From contig CALUPI010000008.1 of the NCBI GenBank assembly GCA_944322645.1, forward strand, positions 1 to 64,000: 64,000 bases of DNA, read 5' to 3'. The stretch's first letter is position 1. The number at the start of each line of letters is the position of its first letter. Source of the DNA: an uncultured Ureaplasma sp. (GTDB lineage Bacteria > Bacillota_I > Bacilli_A > Mycoplasmatales > Mycoplasmoidaceae). Shown in pieces: positions 3,566-10,685 of the stretch. The translations under genes and the position numbers were made by a program. The notes beneath the pieces are model-generated. The model made no database searches. It worked only from the letters and a program-made list of their open reading frames with translations, and was not told where the DNA came from.

Positions 3566-3660
3566 AAAACATTAATTTGGTAAACTCCATTTTAATGTTT
3601 TTTAATGTCTATTTAGTAAATTTTGAAATTTTTTCATTATTTATTAATGAAGTGAAAAAG
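3566..3660 (+). repeat. leader repeat, copy 1
   Basis: About 95 bases directly upstream of the first coiled-coil gene are nearly identical to 4834-4929 upstream of the second. Each copy has a hairpin AAAACATTAA / TTAATGTTTT (3566-3575 with 3592-3601) followed by T-rich DNA, then a second small inverted repeat CATTA / TAATG (3635-3649) next to the start codon. The first hairpin could be a terminator or attenuator for transcription arriving from asnA. Confidence 0.75.
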
Positions 3661-3661
3661 A

Positions 3662-4060
3662 ATGAAAAACCAAAACTCTAAGTTCAAACATGTTTTGCAA
3701 GATTATGATGTTGAATCAGTTGAAATTCACAATTATGATTTATCTGCTAAATTAAAAGATAAAATAAAGAAAGAAAAGTCAAATAATATTGCAAAAGACA
3801 AGGAATCTAAAATGGCCAAAAAAAGTAAAACTGATACAATTCTTGAAGTTGTGCTAAATTTAAAAGAAGAATTTAGTGATCTAAAAACTAGAGTTTGAAG
3901 CTTAGAAAATAATTTTAATGAATTTAAAACAGAAGTAAGAGAAGAATTTAGTAAGGTTAATTCTCGTTTAGATAAACTTAAAGATGATGTTCAAATTTTA
4001 AAGCAGGATGTGAATTCACTTAAATCTGAAGCTATAAAACATGGATGAAATATTAGTTAA
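3662..4060 (+). CDS. coiled-coil protein of mycoplasma DUF16-like type, copy 1
   Basis: A 132-residue protein, with two TGA codons read as Trp. The first 60 residues are basic and lysine-rich (the shared block ends AKKSKTD). Residues 60-125 form a heptad pattern typical of a coiled coil (NLKEEFSDLKTRVWSLENNF, then repeated LK-D units). The C-terminus, SLKSEAIKHGWN, is almost identical in the second copy at 4930. There is no signal peptide or membrane segment. The look is that of the DUF16 coiled-coil proteins known from Mycoplasma pneumoniae, but membership is by resemblance only and function is unknown. The ribosome site is weak (AAGTGAAAAAGA). Confidence 0.7.
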
Positions 4061-4929: not shown

Positions 4930-5325
4930 ATGAAAAATCAAAATAAAAAATTTAAACAAGTTCTAAATGATTATGATGTTGAGTCAGTTGACATTCAAAA
5001 TTATGATTTATCTGCAAAATTAAAAGATAAAATAAAGAAGGAAAAGTCAAATAATATTGCAAAAGACAAGGAATCTAAAATGGCTAAAAAAAGTAAAATT
5101 GATATGTTGTATGAAATTGTTTTGGAGATGAAAACTGATTTTAATGAATTTAAAACTGAAGTTAAATCTGAAATTCAAGAAATTAAGAATGATTTACATA
5201 TCTTAAAAAATGATGTTCATATTTTAAAAGAGGATGTTAATGTTCTTAAATCTGATGTTCATATTTTAAAACAAGATGTGAATTCACTTAAATCTGAAGC
5301 TATTAAACATGGATGAAATATATAA
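4930..5325 (+). CDS. coiled-coil protein of mycoplasma DUF16-like type, copy 2
   Basis: A 131-residue paralogue of the protein at 3662. The N-terminal 60 residues match closely, including the block ending NIAKDKESKMAKKSK, and the C-terminal SLKSEAIKHGWN is the same. The middle differs: here it is a run of seven-residue units, LK-x-DV-H/N-I/V, repeated five times, with hydrophobic residues at coiled-coil positions. Such units can expand or contract by recombination. GAGG upstream supports ATG 4930; the TGA at 5314 is Trp and the real stop is TAA 5323. Function unknown; oligomerisation through the coiled coil is likely. Confidence 0.72.
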
Positions 5326-5381
5326 TTATTAATTTATTATAATTAATAAAATTTTTGATATTTTTTATATGAAGAATAAAA

Positions 5382-5446
5382 TCCTACATTCAAATGACAA
5401 CTGCAACACTAAAAAATATAGTTGTGGTTTTTATTTGAATGTAGGA
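5382..5446. repeat. 14-bp perfect inverted repeat with a nested stem
   Basis: TCCTACATTCAAAT (5382-5395) pairs perfectly with ATTTGAATGTAGGA (5433-5446). Inside, CAACT (5400 region) can pair with AGTTG about 20 bases later. The inner sequence CAACTGCAACACT resembles CAACTACAACACT downstream of asnA (about 3541), so this is a further diverged copy of the same intergenic element. Confidence 0.65.
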
Positions 5447-5474
5447 ATCTATCAATCATCTGATAGATTTTTTA
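5447..5474 (+). terminator. terminator after the second coiled-coil gene
   Basis: The stem ATCTATCA / TGATAGAT (5447-5454 with 5461-5468) is followed by TTTTTT. It is the same hairpin as at 3501 after asnA. Confidence 0.7.
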
Positions 5475-5536: not shown

Positions 5537-8500
5537 TTAATCATCCATAGAAAAATAATCTTTTGAATTGATGTTTTCTACTTCTGCCATAATTTGTTTT
5601 TTAATTTCTAAGTTATTATATACTCATGCATATTCTTCAATTCTTATTGTATTGTATCCTCTATCTACAAAAAAGAAATAATTGTCAATAGATTCTAAAT
5701 AATTTTGTAAATTGATTTTGTTTGATCATTTATTAATCACAATTGCCAGTTCAACTTTTTCAGTTTTTTTATTAACAATTGCAAAATCAATAATTTTTGA
5801 ACCAATATCATAATTATCCACAATTTCAATATCTTTTTTGTTGTATAAATTAGATAATAATCAATTTCCAATTTCCACTTTAAAAATACTGTCCACAAAA
5901 TTAGTTTGCGAATTGCTAGTAGTATGAACATTCTTATGTTCTGCAATTTTATCACAGTATTCAAAGAATGATCTTAACACTAGGGCATTATGATTATTGT
6001 AGTTAATATTCATATCAGCCGCAGAAATAGATTTAACAATTATCATTTTTTCTTTAGCTCTTGTAATGGCAACATTTAAACGGTTAATACCACCATCCAT
6101 AATTAATGGACCATATGAATTTTTGAATAATCCATCTTTACCAATACCAAATGTTGTAGATAAAATAACTAAATCACCTTCATTACCTTGAACATTTTCT
6201 AGATTGGTAATTACTAAGTTGTTTGATAAAAACTTTTTATAAATAGCATTTGAAGAATCTGCATTTTTAAATAATAATTGTTCAATATATAAACTTTGTT
6301 TAGAACCAAAAGTAATAACAATTATCTTATTATATTTATTAATATTTTGGGACAATAATTGAATTACTTTTTGTGCTTCAACTTCATTTACACTATCTTC
6401 AGCAACTCCATTTTCAACATTAATAACTTCAATACCTGATCCACTAACACCGTTTTTTGTAGCAAAGTGAAGATTATGATCATACACAAAATCATTACTA
6501 AATTGAATTAAGTCTCTATGTTCTGAACGATAATGGTTTCTTAAATTATAACTTGCTCATAATGATACTTTTGCTCTATCTAATAATGAATCAACTTGGT
6601 CATTATCTGCTAATGCATATTCATAATCATTTTCATTAATTCTAGATGCAAAGAATGAAGTTGGTTTTAATTGCTTGTCATCTCCTGCAACAATATTTGT
6701 GTTACAACGATATACAATTGGATATGCACGTTCAACAAACATTTGTGATGCTTCATCAAAAATACCATAATCAAATATTCCTTTTTCTAAAGGTAACATT
6801 TGAGCAACTAATTCTGGTAAAGAGATTCAAATTGGGAATATTATTGATAATTGTTTATAGTATTGTTGAATGAAATCTTTAATTGAAGCATTTTTCTTTG
6901 AATTACGTCTAGCAATACTAAATACCTCTTGCATCTTGTTTCATTCAGAAGTTGATAATTTTGATAATACTGAACGTAAATATTCTAAATAATAAGATTC
7001 AACATCTTGGCTTGCATGATCAGCAACATTAGCAATTATATTTCTATCCTTATTAATCAATTCGTTAATGTCAACATACATCAAATTTTTATATTTACTC
7101 ATTATTTCATTTTCATAATTAATAATTATTTTAAATTTATCAAATGTAGAACCATCCATACCGCGAACTGGAGTTAATTTTGTAACATCATCTTCATCAA
7201 AGAATGTAAATGATTTTAATCCTAAATCCTTAATATATTGTTTTAACATTCATGGATTTCTATAAATAATAACAGTGTTTTTATCAATAAAATCAGTTTT
7301 TTCTTCTGCAATTCTAAATAAATAATTATACTTAGCATGTGGAATTTGTGAAAAAAACTTAATCGCAGCTAATTTTTCATTTAATTCACTTACATCTTCT
7401 TCTACATTACCTTTAAATAATTGCTTAAATTTAGATATCTTTTTAAAATTAATAAAATTAAATAATAATGTATATCTAGTCTTTTGGTCATCAAGTTTAA
7501 CATATGCATCTAAGAATTGATTTAGATTATCATATTGTTCTATTAAGAAAGACATAAATTTCTTAGGACCATAATATTTTGGAAATTGATTTGCAAATTC
7601 AATAATTTTGGATTTTTGTATTACTAATAATTGAGGATGATTACTTAAAATTTGATTAAATTTATCATCATTTTTTAAGCTATATGTTTCTAAGAAGTTT
7701 GACAATTTTAATACTTTATTTGGAATCTCTTTTTCATTTTCAATTATATATTGTAAAAGATTGTCAGTTAATTGATATTTTGTGATTAATAATTTTTGTT
7801 CTTTCAATGTATTGGTAATAGTATTTTCATTAATACCATTAATTAATAAAAATTCTTTATATTCATTAAATTTAGCAAAGAAATTTTCTGTACTTGTAAA
7901 AGAATATTTTCTCATTAATGATTCAATAAATTCAATAATATTAGAATCTTTTGCATATTTTAGCAATTTCTTATCAACATTTGAATTTGCATTAATATAT
8001 TGTGTAAATGTTGTTCCTAAGGAATCTACAACTTTATTTAATTTAATAATTTCATTTATATATTCTCTTACTTTTAAATGAGCATTTTGAACCTTTTGTC
8101 ATTTAGTTGATGATTGAATTTTACCTCTTAAATCAAAATCTCTAGTATCAACATTTCCATAGTCATCAAAACGCATATTTAATACTTTATCACCAAGTGC
8201 AGCTATCTTTCCATAAAAACCACTTTTGTCATCCAAATCATATATAAATAGTGCAAGCTTAGAAATATGTTGTAAACGATCATGTAAAACATTTAAAGCT
8301 GCCTTCTTTTCTGAAACAACTAATACAGTTTTTAAATTAACAATAGCATTAGCTATTATGTTTGCAATTACTTCAGATTTTCCAGTTCCTGGCGGACCAT
8401 ATATTAATGTATTTTGGTGTAAAGCAGAGCGAATTGCATATTTTTGATATATGTTTAATGGTCTACCTATTTCAATCAAAGGTTCACCATTAATTTCTTG

Positions 8501-9685
8501 ATTAATAAACTTAGTATCTGAATATTCATTTTGACTAACAAATGGATCAACATTTAAATCAACTAAACGTTCCAGATTTTCTTTTAGTGCTCCACCTGAT
8601 GGTTCATAAATACCTAATAATGATGAATCATATATTTCAAACTCAGTAAATCTACTCAACTCACTATTTCCAATTTCTTTAAATTCATGATTTTCAGTAG
8701 ATTTTGATTTAATTGGAATGTCAATATCTTTTTTAATAATTTTTAATAGTTTTGAGTAATCATCAATCTTTGCTAAGTCACTTACAATTCAATTTAAATT
8801 AAATTCTTTCTTTAATAAAGTTAATAATTTTTCATTAACTACAAATTTATTCTTAGAATGCTTTAACACATATTTACCAGAAGCAAAATTCATTTCTACT
8901 TGAAATAAAATAATTGGTGAATTTAAAAGCACACCTGTTTTTGTACAACCAACTAAAAAATTAGTTGCTAAATATAATGAATACACACCAGTGTTATCAA
9001 CAATGTTTTTATTTTTTCGAATAATTGCATCAAATTTTCTTTTTTGATCAAAAGTTTTATTGGAAATACTTTGAATAATTTTAACCTTTGCAGATTCAAA
9101 ATCCTTATATAAATCATTCTTTTTAGATTCAGAAATTGGAATGTCATAGTTTTGCAAACAAATCAAAAACTCACCAGGATTTTTTGCAGAATTTAAATAA
9201 TAATCAATATCACTTGAATTCATGCTTAAATTTTTAAATTCAATTGTTGCAGATGGATTTTGAATAAAATTTTGAACAGTGTCATAATCAACAAATCTAG
9301 ATAAATCTATAGTATCTTTAGTTAACTTTGCCTTTATACACATGTCTTTCGGATTTGTGTTAGTTAAATTAGCTAATTTAATTTTAATAGCTCTATTATC
9401 TTTCTTTGTTGGTTTTCTAGTTAAATTGTCTGTTTCCTCATCCTCAAAATCATCAATTAGAAAATTATTAATTTCTATTGATTTTGTATTATTATTATTT
9501 TGATTATCTAAAGCGATATTTTCATCAACATCCATATTATCAGCATCAAATAATAAATTTAAATTTGATGTTGCACCTGGTTTTTCTGATAAATCTAATT
9601 TTTTTGAATCTGTCAATAAACTTCTAGTTAATTGTTCATCATCTAGTGAAAATAATTCTTCATTTTTATTTTTTTTCTTGTTCAT
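5537..9685 (-). CDS. DUF4011-type superfamily 1 helicase with a degenerate Vsr-like nuclease tail
   Basis: A 1382-residue cytoplasmic protein, continuous once TGA is read as Trp. Order of parts: an acidic, low-complexity N-terminus (1-110); a segment at about 233-298 (GVYSLYLATNFL, then NSPIILFQVEM) that matches the pattern of DUF4011; Walker A GPPGTGKS near 430; a long insertion; motif II FDEAS near 977; AGDDKQLKP (motif III); VQGNEGDLVILST near 1165 (motif V); RLNVAITRAK near 1202 (motif VI); and a C-terminal domain (about 1275-1382) resembling Vsr/MTES_1575-type nucleases. In that domain the expected catalytic IExDG reads IVINK, so nuclease activity is doubtful. The layout also resembles the mollicute helicases related to MG140. 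AGAAGGG precedes ATG 9685; the HEPN gene ends 14 bases upstream, so the two form one operon. Confidence 0.85.
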
Positions 9686-9699
9686 AAATGTAGCCCTTC

Positions 9700-10623
9700 T
9701 TAATACTCATATCCTAAATATTTAATAACTTTTCTCTTAACAATATATTCAAATCTAGATTTTTTAACTAATTTTTTAACTTGATCATTCAAAGATTTAG
9801 AAAATCAAGAATTTTTATTAAATCAATCTACCATATCTAAAAAATCAATAATACTTTTAATTTGCATGTAATTTTGATCTTTAGCAATACCTAAATATTT
9901 TTTAATTTCATCATTAATTTTAAATCTAGAAACTAATACAAAATCATTGTGAGTAATCTTATTTCTAAACTTCCTTAAAATATTACAAATTCAAATAAAT
10001 GATTCAATAGTAATGTTTGCATCTAAACACTCATGGATTATTTGTTTTTGTAATCTCAAATCCAAATATTCAAATAAATTAATAATGGTACCAAAAGTTC
10101 AAGATAAAGATAGCGTTAATAATGGTGGTGTTTCTGATTTTAAATTTGTATTAATTGTACGATTAATATCAAACTTTGAAAATGATCTTAATAAATTGGA
10201 ATCTGATGATTGATATAAACTTAAGATTAATCTTTTTTTAGTTTCTAAATTAGAAATATTTAATCATAAAGAATTTTCATATGTTAGGATATAATCCCTT
10301 TCTAATTTATAAAATTTTAACAGTTGAGAAATGAGTATAGAATTAAATCTAGTCTCAAAATCTAAAATACTACCGAGTAATAAAATTCCAAGCTTCCGAT
10401 CAAATTTTGCAAGTTTTATTAACTCACTTGTGTCAATTTTGCCAACAAATTGAGAATTTGAATCAAGTAAACATGCAGCATATCCATTTATAACTCTTGG
10501 TAATCCATAGTTATAACAAAAAGAATCTAACTTCTTCTGGTTTTTAATTTTAAAACCTTGGTCAGTTAGTTTGGTAAAATTATAGTTGTACTTCTTATTC
10601 AAATCAAAAATATTTTTTTTCAT
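9700..10623 (-). CDS. Abi_2 (AbiD/AbiF-like) abortive-infection protein with HEPN motif
   Basis: A 307-residue protein, four TGA codons read as Trp. The architecture is that of the Abi_2 family: an N-terminal region with YNYGLPRVINGY near residue 40, a helical core (FDRKLGILLLGSILDFETRF, 74-93), and a C-terminal LRKFRNKITHND in which R220 and H225 form the R-x4-H motif of HEPN ribonucleases. Family members protect bacteria from phage by killing or arresting infected cells, probably by cutting RNA. The RNA-cleaving residues look intact. The gene is first in a two-gene operon with the DUF4011 helicase and shares a short divergent promoter region with tsaD. Family identity is likely from the motif and pattern; activity is inference. 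Confidence 0.78.
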
Positions 10624-10685
10624 TGTTTTATATATATTTATTATACATATAATAATTATAATTAAATTATGTTTTGGAGGATATT

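Follow-up and report, generated by a model that had tools for sequence, protein, structure and literature searches.

Known systems

The combination of a HEPN ribonuclease with an SF1 helicase is of a known kind. The MTES_1575-type giant proteins are natural fusions of a SWT1/Abi2-family HEPN domain, an SF-I helicase, a Vsr REase domain and a wHTH (PMC3710099), and in CoCoNuTs, UPF1-like helicases share operons with HEPN effectors; a CoCoNuT that has no McrC nuclease of its own, or an inactive one, comes with genes for a HEPN protein or another nuclease (PMC11090510). In Hachiman, the helicase restrains its nuclease partner (PMC12278908). AbiF proteins answer to another kind of control, those of C. 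difficile and of a Prevotellaceae bacterium binding an ncRNA antitoxin (PMC12373285). Cas13 is also reported to have evolved from AbiF-type proteins (PMC12373285, citing Zilberzwige-Tal et al.).

Here we describe a locus from an uncultured Ureaplasma sp. in which an Abi_2-type HEPN gene directly precedes a DUF4011 helicase gene; the window, that is, the whole stretch of DNA analysed, is 64,000 nucleotides long (contig CALUPI010000008.1). A search of open-access papers found no description of a two-gene unit of an AbiF-type HEPN protein and a DUF4011 helicase. The pair has the Abi2-family HEPN protein, the SF1 helicase and the Vsr-like MTES_1575 domain in common with the giants, but those are single polypeptides with Vsr, transglutaminase and wHTH domains (PMC3710099), whereas the window unit has two genes and a degenerate Vsr; Pfam detected neither a wHTH/DUF3320 nor a transglutaminase in the pair. 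CoCoNuT CnuH (a UPF1-like helicase) and CnuE (a wHTH-HEPN effector) form a helicase–HEPN RNase operon as in the window (PMC11090510), but the window unit lacks McrB GTPase and McrC genes, and its HEPN protein is of the Abi_2 type, has no wHTH and is encoded upstream. Hachiman shares the logic of a two-gene nuclease (HamA) and helicase (HamB) system (PMC12278908), but the HEPN RNase and SF1 helicase of the window are of different families from HamA and HamB, and neither window protein gave a PADLOC match to them. The weak match to MkoC of Mokosh (MkoA/MkoC helicase plus PLD nuclease; 63 bits) comes through the common helicase core, and the pair contains no PLD domain, which places it outside that system. 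The best reading of the window pair is as a split relative of the known HEPN–SF1 helicase–Vsr fusions.

The Ureaplasma locus

The features of the locus are as follows.

9700..10623, minus strand: Abi_2 / AbiF-AbiD-type HEPN protein, 307 aa; first gene of the operon
9949..9966, minus strand: HEPN catalytic motif codons R220-N221-K-I-T-H225, position checked in the translation
9686..9699, minus strand: 14-bp spacer from Abi to helicase, with a GAAGG ribosome-binding-like site right behind the Abi stop (TAAGAAGGGCTACATTTATG)
5537..9685, minus strand: DUF4011 / UPF1-like SF1 (COG1112-type) helicase, 1382 aa; second gene
8813..9181, minus strand: DUF4011 segment, residues 169-291 (Pfam PF13195, 5.7e-10)
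8375..8398, minus strand: helicase motif I GPPGTGKS, residues 430-437, intact in the sequence
6053..6082, minus strand: helicase motif VI RLNVAITRAK, residues 1202-1211, intact in the sequence
5582..5842, minus strand: MTES_1575 (Vsr-like PD-(D/E)xK) domain, residues 1282-1368 (Pfam 2.3e-4, below cut-off)
10624..10673, no strand: divergent intergenic region to tsaD, 50 bp, AT-rich in sequence
5383..5445, no strand: perfect inverted repeat of 13 bp (CCTACATTCAAAT / ATTTGAATGTAGG), loop of 37 nt, in the gap where the helicase and DUF16-like genes converge

Both open reading frames are found at these coordinates under genetic code 4 and are fragmented under table 11; 5 TGA codons in the Abi gene and 9 in the helicase gene are read as Trp. 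The earlier note on this DNA had described, 14 bases past the Abi gene, a helicase of 1382 residues with a DUF4011-like N-terminal segment, and gap, reading frame and Pfam all agree with it. The four profiles Abi_2, DUF4011, AAA_11 and AAA_12 that it had proposed for checking scored over their cut-offs, while MTES_1575 stayed weak and below its own (2.3e-4).

On either side of the unit lie tsaD and a DUF16-like gene. By its length, the gap between tsaD and Abi would offer room for a promoter and little for an AbiF-type antitoxin RNA. The inverted repeat at 5383-5445 is a possible shared transcription end; a simple scan found no terminator at it. An Rfam mir-507 match at 5374-5454 reflects the palindrome, lies below cut-off and was rejected as spurious. 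No signs of a defence island or mobile element were found around the pair, whose identified neighbours are housekeeping genes, and viral contigs yielded no relatives of the pair. Two related DUF16-like coiled-coil proteins are encoded at 3623-4060 and 4930-5325 of the window, with a common N-terminal stretch and different numbers of heptad-like repeats, and a similar protein is encoded elsewhere in the same genome (L213:1-234).

An AbiF-like HEPN protein

The first gene had been read as an Abi_2-type gene with an intact R-x4-H motif (R220, H225), a reading borne out by profile, position and conservation alike. The protein matches Pfam Abi_2 (PF07751) with an E-value of 3.1e-16 and 60.6 bits, over the curated cut-off of 25.6, and the PADLOC AbiD profile at 4.4e-11. 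Within an alignment of 14 mollicute Abi_2 proteins, R220, N221, H225 and N226 are invariant. A profile search of the PDB gave one good match, AbiF structure 8vz6 (4e-17), whose R210-N-S-C-C-H215 lines up with R220/H225 of the window protein, and the corresponding R210/H215 double mutant of PbAbiF is reported to be inactive (PMC12373285). The AlphaFold model (pLDDT 84) has 8vz6, annotated as a PbAbiF dimer bound to ncRNA, as its sole significant fold match (E 3.2e-7, TM 0.66/0.68). Fold, catalytic R/N/H residues and size are thus common to the window protein and described AbiF/AbiD proteins (PbAbiF 8vz6, AbiF-Cd; PMC12373285). Judged from sequence, the Abi protein is likely an RNA-cutting "suicide" protein, its RNase activity being presumed from this likeness.

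A UPF1-like helicase with a decayed nuclease domain

The second gene combines Pfam matches over cut-off to AAA_11 (4.1e-15), AAA_12 (4.3e-14) and DUF4011 (5.7e-10) with further intact motifs at DEAS 977, GDDKQL 1001, NHYRS 1050 and VQGNEGD 1165; all hallmarks of the DUF4011 / COG1112 UPF1-like SF1 class (DUF4011, AAA_11, AAA_12 and SF1 motifs) are there. The predicted structure of residues 190-1382 (pLDDT 83) matched Senataxin, Upf1, IGHMBP2 and Aquarius in a fold search, with E-values of 2e-12 to 1e-10. Its C-terminal domain is predicted to follow the alpha-beta3-alpha-beta-alpha layout of the PD-(D/E)xK fold. Of the Vsr-like site, D1300 is kept and the second acid is replaced by V: in alignments, intact relatives read IEVDGW and the window IVINKW, with V-I-N-K in place of E-x-D-G. 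Because the second acidic residue has been lost, the tail is probably a dead nuclease. In G506 and G542, two of the paired relatives introduced below, the first acid is gone as well. The second-acid glutamate is present in 10 of 42 mollicute helicase tails and in none of the six paired ones; unpaired mollicute helicases often have a decayed Vsr as well, so the decay belongs to the background and does not single out paired genes. The idea that the HEPN protein is a specific stand-in for the dead Vsr domain was ruled out on the same count, the glutamate being kept in so few tails that decay is general.

Hhe, PDC-S37 and ProA share with the window helicase the layout of DUF4011, AAA_11/AAA_12 helicase and MTES_1575, and PADLOC matched the helicase to PDC-S37 (312 bits, E 2.2e-93, a profile without a stated cut-off) and to Hhe (2.1e-49). 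These matches would favour a single-gene defence protein of the Hhe/PDC-S37 kind, with the Abi neighbour as a hitch-hiker. The known defence members of the family are larger single proteins, with model lengths of 1550-1911 against 1382 aa in the window, where the Vsr is degenerate and the HEPN gene separate. The scores also fall far under the NCBIfam cut-offs, at 227 bits against 2000 for Hhe and 319 against 1500 for ProA (NF058533), which rejects membership in either. The helicase is thus not an Hhe protein, the type to which the earlier note had pointed: its score is too low, and a catalytic acid is missing from its Vsr-like domain. With that acid gone in six of six paired helicases and Abi–helicase adjacency conserved, a self-sufficient defence helicase is very improbable.

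Pairing within Ureaplasma

Abi immediately precedes the helicase, in the same orientation, in 6 of 10 Ureaplasma genomes examined, U. diversum included. The two genes are 14 bp apart in the window and 12, -7, 29, 5 and 8 bp apart in five relatives. Across these five paired relatives, identity to the window is 86, 84, 61, 36 and 35% for the helicase and 72, 71, 54, 28 and 30% for Abi. The nearest relatives of the helicase are themselves Ureaplasma proteins (Ca. U. intestinipullorum, 83% identity; U. diversum NCTC 246, 35%). Trees of the paired Abi and helicase genes have the same topology, ((G506, G542),(G533,(G552,(window, G594)))). Against the two nearest relatives both genes have dN/dS values of 0.11-0.19, which are rough because synonymous changes are near saturation and which indicate purifying selection on both. 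The unit adjoins tsaD in the window, G552 and G533 and sits in a different cluster of hypothetical genes in G506 and G542; given these two chromosomal contexts, the adjacency is not just frozen gene order. The pairing is thus real and old: a lack of adjacency in related genomes had been named beforehand as the observation that could overturn it, and the pair survived in six species with gaps of -7 to 29 bp.

Three genomes of the genus encode the helicase without Abi. G438 (U. canigenitalium) and G434 have the hypothetical-gene cluster of G506/G542 and the helicase, and in G527 tsaD and metK flank the helicase, and a gene for a P-type ATPase occupies the expected Abi position. Within the genus, the Abi clade is always found next to the helicase and the reverse does not hold. 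This asymmetry over nine helicase-bearing genomes, Abi being retained only with the helicase and the helicase also alone, is suggestive, and fits the idea of an RNase that does harm when its partner is missing. Either history of Abi, two gains or one gain followed by loss, would fit the trees. In G506 and G542 (U. diversum), a gene for a multi-pass membrane protein lies 5-28 bp past the helicase (L094:13378-14190, L095:8765-9562); the two proteins, of 265-270 aa, are 26% identical and were not seen in the window lineage, and a third component is possible there.

The chromosomal location, apparently vertical inheritance and housekeeping neighbours of the unit would also suit a housekeeping helicase that repairs stalled replication or transcription or resolves R-loops and is joined by the HEPN protein for RNA processing, neither of them serving defence. 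Several helicase paralogues per genome, a fold nearest to Upf1, Senataxin and IGHMBP2, and the lack of relatives in viral contigs point the same way. The patchy occurrence of Abi, its fast evolution (28-30% identity within one genus) and the relationship of both proteins to defence families argue against a housekeeping role, which we consider quite improbable.

Distribution outside the genus

The helicase has relatives in 217 of the 298 genomes searched in the order, and Abi_2 is present in 89 of the 298. When coordinates were compared across 298 order genomes and 395 Bacilli, no Abi_2–DUF4011 adjacency outside Ureaplasma appeared among the matches listed, a comparison that infrequent pairs could escape, and 50 helicase loci inspected in genome contigs yielded only the known Ureaplasma pairs. 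The earlier description of the operon as unusual in mollicutes accordingly holds for the pairing, found only in Ureaplasma among the sampled genomes, but not for its parts, each of which is common alone. The nearest Abi outside the genus belongs to the same clade (G606, another genus) and has no helicase beside it. Upstream of unpaired helicases there is no common partner, the genes found being for P-type ATPase, hydrolases, alcohol dehydrogenase and unknowns. Many mollicutes encode a similar helicase with no Abi partner, from which it follows that the helicase is useful in its own right.

Control of the Abi protein

Known AbiF is under ncRNA antitoxin control (PMC12373285), whereas the Abi gene of the window is coupled to a helicase gene, with no RNA of that kind detected. 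Rfam gave no match to an AbiF-like RNA near the window Abi, a search that a diverged or distant RNA could escape, and none at 18 other mollicute Abi_2 loci. Paired and unpaired Abi genes have upstream gaps of overlapping size, so gap length has no discriminating power.

The main rival to helicase control follows from this background: Abi would be a self-contained AbiF-type toxin under a non-coding RNA, and the helicase an independent nucleic-acid repair or RNA-surveillance enzyme with which it merely shares a promoter. The ncRNA binding of both AbiF proteins named above (PMC12373285), an ncRNA-bound AbiF as the best structural match of Abi, the occurrence in most mollicutes of such helicases with no Abi, and the three Ureaplasma-genus genomes that keep the helicase at its expected place with Abi absent all speak for it. 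Against it stand the 50 bp upstream and 14 bp downstream of Abi, in which Rfam finds no abiF-like RNA, and the tight gene order kept in six deeply diverged species and two genomic contexts. We judge an RNA-controlled toxin that only shares the operon to be unlikely, though not markedly so.

A proposed helicase-gated HEPN ribonuclease

With moderate confidence, and from the analysis as a whole, we propose that the unit is a two-gene, helicase-gated HEPN ribonuclease, most likely for defence. The gene anatomy is consistent with an RNase effector and a helicase acting as regulator or sensor, and the pair is probably a two-part phage-defence or stress switch. In favour are the intact catalytic residues and helicase motifs, the AbiF fold, the UPF1-like fold and the tight pairs in 6 of 10 genomes, together with the agreeing trees, the two chromosomal contexts, the low dN/dS values and the one-sided retention of Abi. 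Several observations stand against it. First, the neighbours are housekeeping genes, outside any defence island. Second, unpaired helicases are abundant in mollicutes and mostly have a degenerate Vsr site too, and the same-clade Abi of G606 has no adjacent helicase. Third, the helicase family's described defence members are bigger, one-protein systems. Finally, AbiF is controlled elsewhere by ncRNA and not by a helicase (PMC12373285).

Helicase gating is inferred from the fusions (PMC3710099), the CoCoNuTs (PMC11090510) and Hachiman (PMC12278908), and the proposed physical complex, trigger and defence role are likewise drawn from gene anatomy and precedent. In the proposed mechanism, the AbiF-like protein, probably dimeric, would act as effector and cut RNA at its RN(x3)H site, and the UPF1-like DUF4011 helicase would bind foreign or abnormal RNA or ssDNA. 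In the resting cell the helicase, or a helicase–Abi complex, would hold the RNase quiet. When a substrate such as phage transcripts or replication intermediates appears, ATP-driven movement would release or activate the HEPN protein, which would stop translation and growth before the phage could spread. The decayed Vsr-like domain may now serve for binding only.

A more specific proposal, possible if somewhat doubtful, is a protein-gated form of AbiF that works by RNA surveillance. Minimal bacteria would here have a new immune module of two genes: the AbiF RNase would be controlled and triggered by a UPF1-like helicase, itself carrying a dead nuclease domain, in place of the ncRNA antitoxin. 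If helicase gating holds, a UPF1-like partner would be a second way to control AbiF RNases, the known ones being held by a small RNA, and the unit would be a split, minimal counterpart of the giant HEPN–helicase–Vsr proteins. The question of helicase gating is testable, since both genes are open to recoding for E. coli.

Other helicase and Abi_2 arrangements

Counting the tandem pair on C30 and those on C3, C8 and C31, the window genome (0.79 Mb) encodes about five DUF4011/UPF1-like helicase genes, a striking number for a reduced genome; the copy on C31 is broken by a stop. Tandem DUF4011/UPF1-like helicase genes of about 1290 aa each, 9-27 bp apart, occur at G000:C30:10500-18296 (L213) and G552:C16:2064-9848 (L214). 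Another DUF4011 helicase (L108:8517-12827) apparently ends in two tandem Vsr-type domains, the first decayed and the second with an intact-looking EVDG. In other genera of the family, Abi_2 genes that are not beside a helicase (L083, L084, L085 and L090) are followed at -8 to 2 bp by a small gene of 88-186 aa, perhaps another two-gene Abi_2 unit.
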